Shown here in pieces: positions 49,228 to 57,318 of a DNA stretch of 64,000 nt. The stretch's first letter is position 1. Every line of letters starts with the position of its first letter. Position numbers and translations under genes: made by a program. The notes beneath the pieces are model-generated. The model searched no databases. It saw nothing but the letters and a program-made list of their open reading frames with translations, and was not told the DNA's origin. Source of the stretch: Collinsella sp. An268 (GTDB lineage Bacteria > Actinomycetota > Coriobacteriia > Coriobacteriales > Coriobacteriaceae). The stretch covers positions 248,001-312,000 of the forward strand of contig NZ_NFJH01000001.1 in NCBI RefSeq assembly GCF_002159765.1, given 5' to 3'.

Positions 49228-50145
49228 TCAGACCCCCTCGCGCTCGCGGATAAGGGAGACTATCTCCGCGGTTTCCATCTCATCGCAATCGATCCACTGT
49301 ACGCGCGGGTCGCGCCTGAACCAGGACAATTGACGCTTCGCGTAGCGCCTGGTGCGCATCTTGATGAGGTCAGTGGCCTCCTCGAGCGACACGGCGCCGT
49401 CCAGATACGAGATGATCTCCTTGTAGCCGATGGCCTGCCTGGATGTCAGGGCATCTCCGAGCCCCTTATCGACAAGGCGGCGCACCTCCTCAATCAGCCC
49501 CCGGGCGATCATCTCGTCGACACGGCGGTCGATGCGATCGTAGAGCCGCCGGCGGTCACCGGTGAGACCGTACTGTGCGGCATCGTAGTGCGGCCGGAAT
49601 TGCGAGAACCCCTGCTTCTGGTCTGCGTACGACGTCCCCTCGTCGCACATCTCGAGAGCCCTGAGCACGCGCCGCACGTTATGCGGGTGAATCACCGCCG
49701 CGCTGCGGGGGTCGCGGTCTTGAAGCAGCCGATAGAGCGCCTCCTCACCATGCTCGCGCGCATAGGCCTCGTAGGCATCGCGCTCAGAGCTGCCGGCCTC
49801 TCCTGCGGGAAATCGCATCTCGTCGAGGGCGGCGCGTACATAGAGCCCCGTTCCGCCGCACAGGATGGCGGTTTTCCCCTCTTCGAGCATTTCGTCGATA
49901 AGGTTTCGCGCGGCACGCTGGTACAGCGCGGCCGAATACGGAACCGAGAAATCGGCCACGTCAACCATGAGCAGGGGCGCCAGGCACTCCCCGGGAGCCA
50001 TCTTAGCGGTGCCGATATCCATGTCCCGATACACCTGCATCGAGTCGGCTGAGACGACCGATGTCCCGAGCTGGTGCGCCAAGAGGTCTGCCACAGCGCT
50101 CTTACCGATAGCCGTGGGCCCCACGATGGCGATAACGCGGCTCAT
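49228..50145 (-). CDS. miaA: tRNA dimethylallyltransferase
   Basis: MiaA adds a dimethylallyl group to A37 of tRNAs reading UNN codons. The 305-residue protein shows the P-loop VGPTAIGKSAVADLLA, VSADSMQVYRDMDIGTAK, GGTGLYVRAAL and the C-terminal YAKRQLSWFRRDPRVQWID. The substrate DMAPP comes from the MEP pathway whose dxr, ispG and ispH genes are in this window. It overlaps miaB by four bases. Confidence 0.97.
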   Translation of the reverse strand: MSRVIAIVGPTAIGKSAVADLLAHQLGTSVVSADSMQVYRDMDIGTAKMAPGECLAPLLMVDVADFSVPYSAALYQRAARNLIDEMLEEGKTAILCGGTGLYVRAALDEMRFPAGEAGSSERDAYEAYAREHGEEALYRLLQDRDPRSAAVIHPHNVRRVLRALEMCDEGTSYADQKQGFSQFRPHYDAAQYGLTGDRRRLYDRIDRRVDEMIARGLIEEVRRLVDKGLGDALTSRQAIGYKEIISYLDGAVSLEEATDLIKMRTRRYAKRQLSWFRRDPRVQWIDCDEMETAEIVSLIREREGV

Positions 50146-51515
50146 CGAGGCTCGCCGCGCATCTCGCCTGCAAGGTACCAGGTGCGGGCCGTCTGTACCT
50201 CGACATCGACGATCTTGCCGACAAGCGAGCCGGGATCGATGCCCTCGGGCACGGGAGCGTGAACCGTCTGGTTCTTGGGGCTCTTGCCCTGCAGGCGATG
50301 GGAGTCCTTCTTGGATACGCCCTCGACCAAGACCGGAACGACCTGTCCCAAATCCAACTGGTTGAAGGCATGGGCCGTATCCTCGATAACGTGCACCAGG
50401 CGGTCAAAGCGATCCTGAATGCGCTCACGGGGCGTATCGTCGGGCATCTCCGCGGCGGGCGTCCCCGCGCGCCGCGAGTAGATGAACGTGAACGCTTGGG
50501 AAAACCGGGCGACGCGCGCCAGCGAGAGCGTCTCGGTGAAATCTTCCTCTGTCTCACCGGGGAACCCGACGATGATGTCAGTTGTGAGGGCGATATGGGG
50601 GACGCGCTCGCGCACCCGCTGTACCAGATCGAGATAGTCTTCGCGCGTGTACCGTCGGTTCATGAGCTTCAAAATGCGCGTGGAGCCGGATTGCACCGCA
50701 AGATGGAGGTGCGGCATGACCGCGGGCACCTCGGCTATAGCGTCGATGGTCTCCGGTAGCAGGTCTTTGGGATGGGACGAGGTGAAGCGAATGCGCTCAA
50801 TGCCCGTCTCCCCGACGGCGCGCAACAGCTCGGCGAAGCGCGGCGCGCCGTAACGGTCACGGCCGTACGAGTTGACGTTCTGACCGAGGAGGGTCACCTC
50901 GCGCACGCCGGTACGCACGAGACCGGTGACCTCGTCGATGATATTCTCGATAGGACGGCTCTTCTCCCGACCGCGGACGTAGGGGACGATGCAGTACGTG
51001 CAGAAATTATTGCAGCCCGTCATGATGGGCACCCAGGCGTGATACGGGGTCTCGCGATGCCAGGGAAGCGACGTCGCGTCGCAAGCGGGGTCTTCGACCG
51101 TAACCACTTGGGGCTCGTCGGACTCAAACGCATGCGCGAGCAGCTCCGCCACATGATTGATGGCGGAGGTGCCAAAGACCACCTGAACGTTATCTAGCTT
51201 GTCGATAAGGCGCTCTCCATCGCGCTGGGCGATGCAGCCGCCGATGGCGACGACACGCTTGCCCGATGGGGCTGCGGGAAGGCTTTTTAGCGAGGAGCAC
51301 TGCCCGTATAGACGCTGGTCGGCGGCCTCGCGCACGCAGCACGTCATGAATATGACGATATCCGCCTCAGCGGGCTCGGCGGCTTCAAGGCAGCCGCACG
51401 CATCGAGCACGCCGCTGACGCGCTCGGAATCATGCAGGTTCATCTGGCATCCGAACGTGCGGATGAAGTAGGTCTTCTGAGAGAGCACCGGATACGAGAA
51501 AGCAGATTGAGACAT
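50142..51515 (-). CDS. miaB: tRNA-2-methylthio-N6-dimethylallyladenosine synthase
   Basis: MiaB adds a methylthio group to the base modified by MiaA. The 457-residue protein has the N-terminal UPF0004 domain with TFGCQMNLHDSER and CCVREAA, the radical SAM motif GCNNFCTYCIVPYVRG and the C-terminal TRAM domain (VLVEGVSKKDSHRLQGKS). The ATG at 51515 lies just after the spoVS stop; earlier in-frame starts would overlap spoVS. miaA follows, so both modification steps are coupled. Confidence 0.96.
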   Translation of the reverse strand: MSQSAFSYPVLSQKTYFIRTFGCQMNLHDSERVSGVLDACGCLEAAEPAEADIVIFMTCCVREAADQRLYGQCSSLKSLPAAPSGKRVVAIGGCIAQRDGERLIDKLDNVQVVFGTSAINHVAELLAHAFESDEPQVVTVEDPACDATSLPWHRETPYHAWVPIMTGCNNFCTYCIVPYVRGREKSRPIENIIDEVTGLVRTGVREVTLLGQNVNSYGRDRYGAPRFAELLRAVGETGIERIRFTSSHPKDLLPETIDAIAEVPAVMPHLHLAVQSGSTRILKLMNRRYTREDYLDLVQRVRERVPHIALTTDIIVGFPGETEEDFTETLSLARVARFSQAFTFIYSRRAGTPAAEMPDDTPRERIQDRFDRLVHVIEDTAHAFNQLDLGQVVPVLVEGVSKKDSHRLQGKSPKNQTVHAPVPEGIDPGSLVGKIVDVEVQTARTWYLAGEMRGEPR

Positions 51516-51516
51516 A

Positions 51517-51834
51517 TCACGCCACCGTTTGAACATCATGGGGTTCGACGAGCTCGCTGTTCTGAAGGCTGAGCTGGTGCACGTATATCGAAAGCCGTAT
51601 TGCCGTGCGCGATTCGCCGTTAATCAAGATATCGGAAAACACGGGCGCGCACGAGATGTCGAACCCCGTGGGGATCAGGAAGCCGCGCGCGATCGCCATG
51701 GCCTTGATGGCCTGATTGACGGCGCCGGCACCCACGCACTGCATATTGACGGGAACCCCATCTTTCACCATACCGGCGATCGCACCGGCGACCGATGCGG
51801 GGGATGATTTGCTCGAGACCTTCAGGTAATCCAT
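51517..51834 (-). CDS. spoVS: Stage V sporulation protein S (SpoVS, Alba-like)
   Basis: A 105-residue protein. The first 86 residues match the small SpoVS family closely (LKVSSKSSPASVAGAIAG, GAGAVNQAIKAMAIARGF, FSDILINGESRTAIRL). The last 20 residues are an extra tail. The ATG at 51834 is chosen because the family begins at this point; GGAGCAACGTAC lies upstream. SpoVS-like proteins occur also in non-sporulating bacteria, and no sporulation genes appear here. In Bacillus the order is rny-ymdB-spoVS; here a GHKL ATPase takes the ymdB place. Confidence 0.93.
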   Translation of the reverse strand: MDYLKVSSKSSPASVAGAIAGMVKDGVPVNMQCVGAGAVNQAIKAMAIARGFLIPTGFDISCAPVFSDILINGESRTAIRLSIYVHQLSLQNSELVEPHDVQTVA

Positions 51835-51917
51835 GTACGTTGCTCCTGCAAATGTGGTTCGATGGGGGTGCGCTAGCTCATTGAGCTTACCGTAAGCTCG
51901 GAATATGGGCAAGAAAC

Positions 51918-53000
51918 CTACTCATCCTTATGGATGTCGAACGTGACGGTGATACGGTCCCCGCGCACGCGCACGGTGGGTTCTTGGGCAAGTGAGAGAT
52001 AGTAGCGGTCTCCGAGCTCGGCGAAATCGCGCTCGAGCGTCCTCGCAAACGCCTGCAGATCATCACGCGTGATGCGCAGGCCGCGCCTATCGCGCGCAAG
52101 ATCGACGGCGGACTCCTGCGGGGCAGCCGTGCGCTCGCGCAGGAGGCGCGCTGCCACGCTCCTCATGGGCTTGATCGTGCCGGCGAGGATGCGGTGCGCC
52201 GTGCGCTCTGACAAAGAGAGGCCGATGCTGCAGGCGATACGCATGAAGTCCTCGGCGTCAGCGGCATATCCGAGGCGATCGACGACGGGGAGCTGCTCCT
52301 CGGAATCCAGAAAGAGGAGCTGGGACGCATCGAGGGCACGGTGCGCGTGCTGATAGAGCGTCGCGGCGATCTCCGTTGCGGAACCGAGATAGACCTCGCA
52401 GCCGTGCAGCTCCTCCAAGGCGAACTCTGCCACGGTGCGCACGATGTTATGCGGGCCGCGTGCGCAGACGTGACGTCCCTCGTCATCTTTCTCAACGACG
52501 GGCCAGCTAGATTGATCGGCACGCTCCGGGAGCACCGATGTGTCGGCGCAGGCGTACAGGGCGGTTCCCAGATTGGCGCCAGACGTGATGACACGTGCCT
52601 CTTCGCAGTTCTGGCGGATTGAGAACAGCGCCATACCGCGACCATGGACGCCCCAACGGTCCATATGCATGCTCTCGAGCTTGGAGGTGACGCGCGCCTC
52701 AAAGATGCGGTCCTGTATATCCTCGGGGACGCCGCACCCATCATCGATGACGACGACCTTACGGAGGTCGTCGTCACGGTACGTCGCAACGTAGATGTGC
52801 TGAGCGCCGGCATCGCGCGCATTGCGCAACAGCTCGATGACCATATCCTCGACATGCTGGATATCGTGCTTAGCCTGCCGGCGCTCAGCCTCAGAGACAC
52901 GCAGGCGGACATAGCCCTCACCGAGGTTCTCCTCGACGCGCAGGTTGGACTCGCCCGTCATCTGAGCGATAAACGAAATGAGTTCCTGCGAGTCCGCCAT
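51918..53000 (-). CDS. GHKL-type ATPase of unknown function
   Basis: A 360-residue soluble protein. The N-terminal part (about 35-150) is an HATPase_c fold: the N box ELLRNARDAGAQ, the G1 box VIDDGCGVPEDI and the G2 box GVHGRGMALFSIRQN. There is no histidine phosphotransfer domain, so it is not a usual sensor kinase; the DDGCGVPE and whole-domain look is closer to MutL, topoisomerase VI B or Hsp90-type ATPases. The middle (about 245-290) has a helical segment (SLSERTAHRILAGTI) that could bind nucleic acid, and a beta-rich end (TVRVRGDRITVTFDIH). It starts 21 bases after rny and probably shares its transcript. I do not recognise a named family. Confidence 0.82.
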   Translation of the reverse strand: MADSQELISFIAQMTGESNLRVEENLGEGYVRLRVSEAERRQAKHDIQHVEDMVIELLRNARDAGAQHIYVATYRDDDLRKVVVIDDGCGVPEDIQDRIFEARVTSKLESMHMDRWGVHGRGMALFSIRQNCEEARVITSGANLGTALYACADTSVLPERADQSSWPVVEKDDEGRHVCARGPHNIVRTVAEFALEELHGCEVYLGSATEIAATLYQHAHRALDASQLLFLDSEEQLPVVDRLGYAADAEDFMRIACSIGLSLSERTAHRILAGTIKPMRSVAARLLRERTAAPQESAVDLARDRRGLRITRDDLQAFARTLERDFAELGDRYYLSLAQEPTVRVRGDRITVTFDIHKDE

Positions 53001-53021: not shown

Positions 53022-54572
53022 CTACTTTGCGATGTCGACGGCACGACTCTCACGGATAACGACGACGCGAACCTGACCGGGGTACTCCATCTCTTCCTCG
53101 ATCTGATGGGCGATGTCGTGAGCCAGGACGGTCGAATCGGCGTCGGAGATCTTATCGGGCTGAACCATCACGTGGACCTCGCGCCCAGCTTGCATGGCAT
53201 ACGTGCGCTCGACCCCCTCGTAAGAGTTGGCGATCTCCTCGAGCTTCTCGAGGCGCTTGATGTAGTTCTCTGCAGACTCACGGCGCGCGCCGGGACGTGA
53301 AGCAGAGATGGCATCAGCGGCCATGACGAGGACGGCGATGACGGAATCGGGCTCGACGTCGCCGTGGTGCGCCTCGATCGCATGGACGATGACAGGCTTC
53401 TCCCCGTAACGGCGGGCAAGATCTGCACCGATGACGGCATGCGGCCCCTCAACCTCGTGGTCGATTGCCTTGCCGAGGTCGTGCAAAAGGCCGGCGCGCC
53501 GCGCCGTGGTCGCATCGACGCCCAACTCGGAAGCCATGATGCCGCAGAGCTCGGCTACCTCGGTGGAATGTGTCAACACGTTCTGGCCGAAGGAGGTGCG
53601 GTAGCGCAGCGCACCGAGCGTCTTCACCAGCTCAGGGTGCAGGTCGTGGATGCCCGTATCGAAGGCGGCCTGCTCGCCCGCCTCGCGGACGCGCTGCTGC
53701 ACGAGGCTGGAGGCCTTCTGGTACATCTCCTCGATGCGCGCCGGATGGATGCGCCCGTCGGCGATGAGGTTCTCGAGGGCGACGCGGGCCGTCTCGCGAC
53801 GGACGGGGTCGAAGCTCGAGAGCACAACCGTCTCGGGCGTGTCGTCGATTACGAGGTTGACGCCGGAAACCTGCTCGAACGTGCGGATGTTGCGGCCCTC
53901 GCGGCCGATGATGCGGCCTTTGAGGTCGTCTGAGGGAATATGCACGGAGGTAACGGTGACCTCGGCGGTGTGGTCGGCTGCGCAGCGCTGGATAGCAAGC
54001 GAGATGATCTCCTGCGCCGTCTTGTGGCACTCGGCCTTCACGCGCTGCTCGGATTCACGGATGATGGCCGCCGCCTCGTGCGTCACCTCGCCGCGGACCT
54101 TGTCGAGGAGCTCCTGATGGGCATCGTCACGCGTGAGCTCGGATATGCGCTCGAGCTCGGCGGTCTGCTTGCTGACGAGCTCCTCGAGCTCACGGCTGCG
54201 CTTTTCAACCTGGCCTGCCTGGCTCGAGAGCTGGTGCTCACGCTTGTCGAGGGCGTCGTTGCGGCGATCGAGAGACTCCTCGCGCTGCATGATGCGGTTC
54301 TCCATGGTGCGGAGTTCCTTCTTGCGCTGCTTCTCTTCCGCCTCGGCGGCCTGCTTGCTCTGGAGGATCTCCTCCTTCGCCTCAAGAAGGGCCTCCTTCT
54401 TGAGCGTCTCCGCCTGTCGCTGCGCATCGCCTATCATCTGGTCTGCCTGGGTGCGCGCAGACTCGATGGCCGCGTCCGCCTCACGAAGGCTCCCCTGCTT
54501 TGCGCTGCGCATGGCGACCGTAGCGCCGCCGGCACCAAGTGCCAGGCAGACGATACCAATCAAAATCTCCAT
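53022..54572 (-). CDS. rny: Ribonuclease Y
   Basis: RNase Y is the membrane-bound endonuclease that begins mRNA decay in many Gram-positive bacteria. The 516-residue protein has one N-terminal membrane segment (about 3-22), a long coiled coil (about 30-190), a KH domain with [19 protein letters not shown] and an HD domain with [16 protein letters not shown] lies upstream of the ATG in the coding sense. A clear own promoter lies at 54723-54751. Together with rnj at the right end, the window encodes two of the main decay enzymes. Confidence 0.97.
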
Positions 54573-54722: not shown

Positions 54723-54751
54723 AGTCTACGTGGAGCTGGTCCAGCTGTCAA
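54723..54751 (-). promoter_or_regulatory. Sigma-A promoter of rny
   Basis: On the minus strand a perfect TTGACA (54751-54746), 17 bases and TAGACT (54728-54723) lie in the recX-rny gap. The leader of about 145 bases contains a hairpin GCCCTC/GAGGGC (54606-54623) shortly before the ribosome site. Confidence 0.8.
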
Positions 54752-54789: not shown

Positions 54790-55470
54790 TCACGCCTCGT
54801 CCCCGTCCTCAGAGAGTCGGGCTTTCACCGCATCGGCGGCAACGCCGTATGAGAAGCCCCTGCCCATCAGAAAGCGGACGAGCTTCTCGAACGGACGGAC
54901 GTCAGGTATGGGTTTGCGTCGCAGAAGCTCCGCAGCGCGGCACCGGTCCTCATCATCGGAAAAGAAGGCATCGGGGTAATCGGCAAGCTGCGTGGGGTCG
55001 GCACCCTTGCGGCGCAGCTCCTGCTCGATCTTTCGACGCCCCCATCCGCGGCGAAGGCGCTCAGCGATGAAGTAGCGGATATAGCGCTCCTCGTCGAGAA
55101 AGCGCGAGGAGCGGGCGCGCTCGACCGCCTCATCGATGGCCGCCGGCGGATACCCGATGCGCGCGAGCTTGTCGCGCGCCTCGCTCTCCCCGTGGTCGCG
55201 CTGAGCGAGCATCTCGACGAGCGCCGCATAGCAAACGCGTCGCCCCACGGCATCTATCCAATTGATAAGCCCCCCGATATCGCACGGAAGATCGGGCGTT
55301 TCCTTGGCGGCGGCACGGGCAACCCGCGCGGGAACGTACACCGTCCGCTCATCTCCCGAGGACAGAGTGCACACCACTCGCGCCTTGGGCCTGCTCTTCC
55401 GATACGCCGCTGCGGCGCGCTCGGTACGATCGGGATAGATGAAGGCGATATCCTCTACCTGCGGCGGCAT
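54790..55470 (-). CDS. recX: Regulatory protein RecX
   Basis: RecX limits RecA filament growth. The 226-residue protein has a basic N-terminal extension of about 65 residues, then the three-helix repeats: LVEMLAQRDHGESEARDKL, FLDEERYIRYFIAERLRRGWGRRKI and FLMGRGFSYGVAADAV. It begins six bases after the recA stop, so it is cotranscribed and under the same LexA control. Confidence 0.94.
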   Translation of the reverse strand: MPPQVEDIAFIYPDRTERAAAAYRKSRPKARVVCTLSSGDERTVYVPARVARAAAKETPDLPCDIGGLINWIDAVGRRVCYAALVEMLAQRDHGESEARDKLARIGYPPAAIDEAVERARSSRFLDEERYIRYFIAERLRRGWGRRKIEQELRRKGADPTQLADYPDAFFSDDEDRCRAAELLRRKPIPDVRPFEKLVRFLMGRGFSYGVAADAVKARLSEDGDEA

Positions 55471-55476
55471 GGGGGC

Positions 55477-56565
<1,089 letters not shown>

Positions 56566-56593
56566 GGGATACCTCCTCGCGTGAACTGATCCA

Positions 56594-56622
56594 ATGATAG
56601 ACGAACGGTTGTTCGCCGTCAA
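56594..56622 (-). promoter_or_regulatory. recA promoter with a LexA box in the spacer
   Basis: On the minus strand TTGACG (56622-56617), exactly 17 bases and TATCAT (56599-56594). The spacer contains the palindromic SOS box CGAACAACCGTTCG (56615-56602), so LexA binding would block RNA polymerase directly. The other stretch, 56623-56808, shows no gene; it holds the 3' end region of pncC. Confidence 0.9.
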
Positions 56623-56808: not shown

Positions 56809-57318
56809 CTATCCACGAGACAGCACGATATCTTCACATGAGGACCTCAGAAGGCGCAGCGCCTCCATCGTAGCCTGCCATCGCACGTCGTCGCGGTCAC
56901 CGTTGAAATGGCGGCGAACCGCCCTCGCGCCATCTTGATCGGCGATGCCGAGGTACACGGTCCCCACGGGGTTGTCGGCCGTACCGCCCCCCGGCCCGGC
57001 AAAACCTGTGATGCTGACAGCGGCGTCGCTACCGAACAGCGCTCGCGCGCGCGCGGCCATCTCGCAGGCGCACCTCTCTGAGACGGCGCCGACGGTTGCG
57101 AGTGTTTTCTCGGAGACGCCGAGCACCCGGTGCTTGATTTCATTCACATAGGTGACCGCTCCGCCGCGCAGAACCTCGGAGGCGCCGGGCACACCGCCCA
57201 CGACGGCTGCGACCCGGCCGGCCGTGCACGACTCGGCCGTGGCGACCGTAAGCCCGTGGGCAGAGGCGAAGGCGACGAGGCGCTGCGCCTCCAAGTCGCA
57301 CATGTCACTCGAGCACAT
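56809..57318 (-). CDS. pncC: Nicotinamide-nucleotide amidohydrolase (CinA C-terminal domain)
   Basis: A 169-residue protein equal to the C-terminal domain of CinA, which deamidates NMN. It shows LTVATAESCTAGRVAAVVGGVPGAS in adjacent blocks, VTYVNEIKHRVLGV and TGFAGPGGG, with the catalytic serine in AESCTAG. The N-terminal pyrophosphatase domain of full CinA is absent, and no such domain lies next to it. The start at 57318 follows a GGGAGGGGAG; a second ATG five codons later is possible. It lies between pgsA and recA, the usual cinA place. Confidence 0.93.
   Translation of the reverse strand: MCSSDMCDLEAQRLVAFASAHGLTVATAESCTAGRVAAVVGGVPGASEVLRGGAVTYVNEIKHRVLGVSEKTLATVGAVSERCACEMAARARALFGSDAAVSITGFAGPGGGTADNPVGTVYLGIADQDGARAVRRHFNGDRDDVRWQATMEALRLLRSSCEDIVLSRG

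Follow-up and report, generated by a model that had tools for sequence, protein, structure and literature searches.

In many bacteria mRNA decay begins with RNase Y, and most of what is known about the steering of this enzyme comes from Bacillus, in which the steering proteins are not ATPases. RicA and RicF, from the same genus, carry iron-sulphur clusters, and we know of no ATPase in the Bacillus Ric complex. In the Bacillus chromosome, ymdB lies beside rny and spoVS, and its product is a metallophosphoesterase whose fold is unrelated to that of a GHKL ATPase. One study indicates that a stable RicT-RNase Y complex does not form without RicA and RicF (PMC10470536), and another that the Ric complex sets the specificity of RNase Y (PMC13230545). 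Regarding GHKL ATPases, a further paper states that in MutL and in MORC proteins a basic residue is provided to ATP by the S5 transducer domain (PMC2292703). Among the papers searched, none contained both "GHKL ATPase" and "RNase Y", and no title among those listed concerned the ATPase family described here.

The window, by which we mean the whole stretch of 64,000 nucleotides of Collinsella sp. An268 that was analysed, contains the gene order recA-recX-rny-ATPase-spoVS-miaB-miaA-hflX; its ORFs, together with the Pfam and NCBIfam results, agree with the order recA-recX-rny-X-spoVS-miaB read in the first-pass annotation. On the reverse strand, recA (55477..56622, named from its sequence and from blastp matches in related loci) is followed by recX (54790..55470, with RecX_HTH domains) and rny (53022..54572), which encodes an RNase Y of 516 aa scoring 720 bits against TIGR03319 (cut-off 454) and ends 21 bp before the ATPase gene. 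A promoter-like site (TTGACA-17-TAGACT; 54723..54751, reverse strand) is located upstream of rny, although it comes from a consensus scan only, with 3 sites found versus 1.5 expected by chance. Between rny and the ATPase gene, scans, which are a weak method, revealed neither a promoter-like site nor a terminator. Downstream, also on the reverse strand, the listed ORF of spoVS (51517..51834; PF04232, E=4.5e-33) begins with a TTG at 51912; in our reading, the ATG at 51834 is the likelier start and fits the family start better, placing spoVS 83 bp after the ATPase gene. It is followed by miaB (50142..51539, reverse strand; TIGR01574, 449 bits, cut-off 355), whose likelier start is the ATG at 51515. 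At 56809-57318 the window encodes a short form of CinA (169 aa), a protein of ~400 aa in other lineages (e.g., L057:1207-2427).

The place of the ATPase gene had been called the ymdB position, a label that is misleading. The YmdB model TIGR00282 has no match in the window genome, and it is missing among the best 25 of 44 NCBIfam matches obtained with the ATPase protein, which without exception fall on the ATP site. Among ATPase-containing genomes, YmdB was matched in 2 of 30, in both cases under the cut-off, in family f22 and away from rny (far from it in G070 and on another contig in G276). It was also matched in 2 of the 21 genomes of the set formed by 20 ATPase-negative genomes and the window genome (G000), both without an RNase Y over the cut-off. 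The proposal that the ATPase replaces YmdB was therefore rejected, YmdB being nearly absent and never beside rny.

The gene product and its domains

The ORF at 51918..53000 (reverse strand) starts with ATG and encodes 360 aa. Its Pfam scan gives two families and no more, HATPase_c (E=1.7e-9) and HATPase_c_3 (E=7.7e-8), HisKA and any further domain being absent, and only these two recur in more than one of its relatives (E<=0.01; family alignment A1, 41 rows). A HATPase fold match in 41 of 41 relatives (Pfam), together with the presence of the N, G1 and G2 boxes, places the family in the GHKL ATPase superfamily. R59, N60, D63, D86, G90, H119, G120 and G122 are invariant in all 41 relatives; the catalytic-type E56 is kept in 40 of them, and ATP hydrolysis is predicted. 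The alignment has 27 invariant columns, which include, besides those of the ATP site, E37, R41 and I47 in the N-terminal part, Q163, N185 and G206, and S264, R266 and R270 in the middle domain. The gene is thus confirmed as real, and the earlier observation of a 360-residue GHKL ATPase with all its ATPase boxes and without a kinase domain was correct.

NCBIfam models of MutL and of histidine kinases match the protein, far under their cut-offs and over the ATP site throughout; the mutL model gives 36 bits (cut-off 180) and covers residues 52-130 only. When the family profile was searched against the PDB, MutL ranked first (E=1.3e-9, residues 48-135). AlphaFold2, run on the whole ATPase with ten sequences, gave a modest model (pLDDT 68, pTM 0.63), in which the first ~45 residues, highly conserved, mostly have a pLDDT <50. 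The best VIA-align matches of the ATP domain were MutL, Topo VI-B and GyrB (Z about 9 to 10.7, 117 to 150 residues), with Z 10.7 and rmsd 4.5 over 150 residues for MutL 9n2k_A; Foldseek alone placed histidine kinases slightly above the other matches of this domain.

From invariant columns, the PDB profile match and the model alignment, residues 1-207 (52380..53000, reverse strand, as for the following features) can be assigned to the conserved N-terminal segment (EENLGEGYVRLRVSEAERRQAKHDI) and a MutL-like ATP-binding domain with N, G1, TSKL and G2 boxes. A helical middle domain follows (residues 208-290; 52131..52379; model helices 208-222, 239-245, 249-258, 265-272 and 282-287), the ends of both domains being estimates. 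It contains the motif SxRxxxR (residues 264-270; 52191..52211), identical in 41 of 41 relatives; when this domain was modelled alone (pLDDT 70), the fold searches gave no convincing match (best Z 3.4). Residues 312-356 (51933..52067) form a long helix and a beta hairpin in the AlphaFold2 model (pLDDT about 55). Sequence models of the S5 transducer, nuclease or C-terminal dimerization domains matched none of the 41 relatives; an S5 fold beyond the reach of such models may nevertheless exist, the structure model being modest.

Extent and inheritance of the family

The ATPase is present in 59 of 60 near relatives, window genome included, and in 150 of 396 genomes sampled from the window's own phylum (E<=1e-20), the whole-genome counts being drawn from this phylum only. 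One assembly, of 290 contigs (G046), has neither an ATPase nor a SpoVS match. The family carries no name in any library searched; the nearest named record to the protein is from Candidatus Coprousia avicola (99% identity), and the public annotation of one close relative reads merely "ATP-binding protein".

By its look on the RNase Y tree, the family has been inherited vertically. Of five matches in plasmid records, only one, from Collinsella, is to a true relative; the remaining four (E 9e-4 to 4e-3) were discarded, being to MutL, to a kinase and to a response-regulator record. An identity as an anti-phage defence protein was rejected (0 PADLOC families for 3 members tested), as was a phage origin, the phage matches being weak and over the ATP site, with no relative in two viral-contig scans.

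Family f22 has a shorter ATPase of ~310 aa (309 aa at L063:6856-7785 and L065:6862-7791). In L063, Q takes the place of E56 and the N-terminal segment has degenerated. In f22, PSP1 also scores low or is absent, and the fast evolution seen there is common to MiaB and MiaA. Five genomes of one genus (G028, G032, G033, G035 and G036) contain a second, weak match (26-28% identity) in long frames, and in three of these genomes the frame includes a TAG.

Linkage to rny

In 95 of 96 loci, corresponding to about 89 genomes with some loci repeated, no listed gene lies closer upstream of the ATPase gene than rny, which is on the same strand and at gaps of -32 to 526 bp; the sole exception (L084) is a contig end. 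Thus, the homologues do sit with rny, a point that the first-pass annotation had left to be checked. By coordinates, rny also adjoins the ATPase gene in G084, G245, G087 and G144, and the two are likewise adjacent in G041, G057, G045, G050 and G051.

As a synteny control, gene pairs were counted in 43 of the 96 loci. rny and the ATPase gene are within 300 bp in 41 of the 42 loci with both (526 bp in the remaining one), and neither was ever seen alone where the locus had room. The same distance holds for ATPase-spoVS in 32 of 35 loci with both (7 further loci being without spoVS), recA-recX in 24/26, recX-rny in 19/27, pgsA-cinA in 14/14, spoVS-miaB in 13/31 and miaB-miaA in 21/32. The bond between rny and the ATPase gene is among the tightest of the block, pgsA-cinA being equally tight where both are seen.

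The best natural test of this bond is family f6 (loci L093, L135 and L136; three genomes), where the pair stays intact in three differing contexts while the remaining neighbours differ. In G041 the order is recA-recX-rny-ATPase-ruvC-ruvA-ruvB; in G049 the pair lies near yceD, rpsB and tsf, with no recA in the stretch read; in both genomes, spoVS-miaB-miaA is on a separate contig. In G057 the pair is followed by carA and carB, again with no recA in the stretch read. The G049 locus also has a Fic-domain gene between yceD and rpsB (L093:3749-4639).

In most of the loci read in which a gene separates spoVS from miaB, it encodes a PHP-domain phosphoesterase, an arrangement common in loci outside Coriobacteriaceae. 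These proteins (L057:8137-8982, L075:3159-3998, L077:8319-9140 and L094:2857-3675) are of the type of RNase RNM / nucleoside bisphosphatase, with scores below the curated cut-offs. The operon would thus gather a third possibly RNA-related enzyme.

Co-occurrence with RNase Y and PSP1/RicT

RNase Y is over the cut-off in 33 of 33 ATPase-positive genomes. Among the 20 genomes in which the family profile search finds no ATPase, 12 have RNase Y without it and 8 have neither; elsewhere in the phylum, RNase Y thus functions in lineages that have no such ATPase. In the RNase Y-containing genomes of this ATPase-negative set, recA-(recX)-rny leads, where these genes were seen, to miaB either directly or with spoVS, a PHP gene or a different gene in between.

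PSP1/RicT was found in 33 of 34 ATPase-positive genomes versus 2 of the 12 with RNase Y and no ATPase, these two (G061 and G076) being exceptions to the pattern. For the RicA/RicF family, a match was obtained in 0 of 46 actinobacterial genomes. Mapped on the RNase Y tree, the ATPase and PSP1 each require 2 changes, L048 being assigned the state of G000 in the PSP1 count. Presence and absence of the ATPase are therefore little replicated, and its co-occurrence with PSP1 amounts to 1 to 2 independent events, with no statistical power.

Proposed role in RNase Y function

Given that the family is conserved, that its GHKL ATP site is intact and that its gene stays attached to rny, the ATPase is, on balance, probably an ATP-driven accessory factor dedicated to RNase Y. 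Speaking against this role are the ordinary rny-ATPase correlation in distance matrices, the few changes of the ATPase on the RNase Y tree and the lineages whose RNase Y does without it. Of the readings considered, the one with most support is a GHKL switch acting on RNA decay, an idea already put forward in the first-pass annotation, the candidate partner being RNase Y rather than SpoVS; its mechanism and its functional effect on RNA decay are matters that we only infer. The ATPase would be made together with RNase Y and would bind either this enzyme or its RNA substrate. ATP binding would close the ATPase as a dimer, like other MutL-type GHKL domains, and the conserved N-terminal segment (the first ~45 residues, not resolved in the model) could act as a dimer strap. 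The middle helical domain would sense the gamma-phosphate, with R266/R270 perhaps replacing the S5 lysine, and this switch would decide if RNase Y cuts and at which sites. The product of spoVS, frequently the next gene, may be a co-factor that binds RNA/DNA, but one that the pairing can do without.

A bolder proposal is thinkable because RicA and RicF are needed in Bacillus for the RicT-RNase Y complex and PSP1 co-occurs with the ATPase. The latter would be an ATP-driven loader handing PSP1/RicT to RNase Y, doing the job of Bacillus RicA/RicF in an unrelated, nucleotide-controlled version of the specificity complex; we consider this quite improbable.

If the ATPase does serve RNase Y as an accessory factor, it would be the first ATP-controlled RNase Y partner of this kind known to us, a GHKL ATPase whose gene keeps its place beside rny over a large part of a phylum, among lineages in which RicA/RicF were not found. 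That gene would then offer a one-gene target for testing the response of RNA decay to the energy of the cell.

Alternative explanations

The alternative that survives best, unlikely in our view, is that of a co-transcribed housekeeping protein with its own function (e.g., ribosome or tRNA related), its link to rny being due to shared expression and not to contact. The neighbours miaB, miaA and hflX, and yceD and rpsB in G041/G049, would suit such a protein, as would the absence of pair-specific co-evolution: in distance matrices, with RecA and MiaA removed, the partial r is 0.25 for rny-ATPase, 0.35 for rny-MiaB and 0.43 for ATPase-MiaB, without any rny-ATPase signal beyond MiaB. However, the pair persists where all other neighbours differ, and it is tighter than nearly every other pair of the block.

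It is rather more doubtful that the protein is a DNA repair or recombination factor, that is, a reduced MutL-like ATPase in a recA-recX operon. Its ATP site is of the MutL type, recA is upstream in most loci with enough flank, and 29 of 34 ATPase-positive genomes (G000 and 28 of the other 33) have no MutL match at E<=1e-30, such matches being found in 5 of 46 genomes, all of them f22. Nevertheless, the f22 genomes, with a true MutL, keep the ATPase beside rny, and G049 and G057 retain the pair without recA in the stretch read. Moreover, recA and rny are >300 bp apart, usually with recX between them, in 31 of 32 loci, and the S5, nuclease and dimerization domains of MutL are missing in the 41 relatives. 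A MutL-type repair factor, the outcome that the first-pass annotation had named as contrary to its idea, is thus not what the S5 and nuclease models, both unmatched, point to.

Less probable still is that the ATPase loads or remodels SpoVS in an ATP-dependent manner, SpoVS being an Alba-like protein that binds nucleic acids (assigned to the Alba superfamily in PMC11621453). Although spoVS is the next listed gene, at <=300 bp, in 32 of the 35 loci with both, SpoVS was matched in 23 of 33 ATPase-positive genomes and not in the other 10, it is present in 4 of 20 ATPase-negative ones, and it needs 6 changes on the RNase Y tree versus 2 for the ATPase. In f22, f31, G064 and G266, rny adjoins the ATPase gene and spoVS does not. 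The tie to SpoVS suggested earlier is therefore unsupported.

Finally, an ATP-controlled DNA-binding regulator, with a Cro/C1-type helix-turn-helix as middle domain, is extremely improbable: GLxxSxRxxxRI resembles a recognition helix and L065 matches Pfam HTH_3 over this invariant motif (E=3.7e-4), but with a score of 20.9 versus a cut-off of 23 and in no other member, a profile comparison against 16 HTH_3 domains from the same genome aligns a different part (probability 20%), no HTH repressor is among the listed fold matches of the middle domain, and the PDB profile search gave no support.

Comparison with known systems

Sensor histidine kinases share the HATPase_c domain with the ATPase and differ from it in their HisKA/DHp phosphoacceptor domain, found in none of the 41 relatives. 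The likeness to YmdB is one of position, its gene being beside rny and spoVS in Bacillus, whereas TIGR00282 is unmatched in the window genome. The N-terminal ATPase domain of MutL/MLH/PMS is closer, with the GHKL boxes, the TSKL and G2 layout and a helix before the N box, and it provides the top profile and VIA-align matches; in contrast, no S5 transducer, C-terminal dimerization or nuclease domain was found in the ATPase family, which has a different middle domain and an operon with RNase Y.

MORC and paraMORC proteins, as described in PMC2292703, are likewise bacterial GHKL ATPases encoded in operons with nucleases. According to the same text, theirs have an S5 domain and belong to restriction-modification operons, whereas the present family, without an S5 match, belongs to the RNase Y operon recA-rny-miaB. 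As for the RicA/RicF/RicT Y-complex of B. subtilis, its proteins have no homology to the ATPase by the models used, and the likeness would lie in the proposed role, that of a protein partner setting the specificity of RNase Y, as two studies describe for that complex (PMC10470536, PMC13230545).
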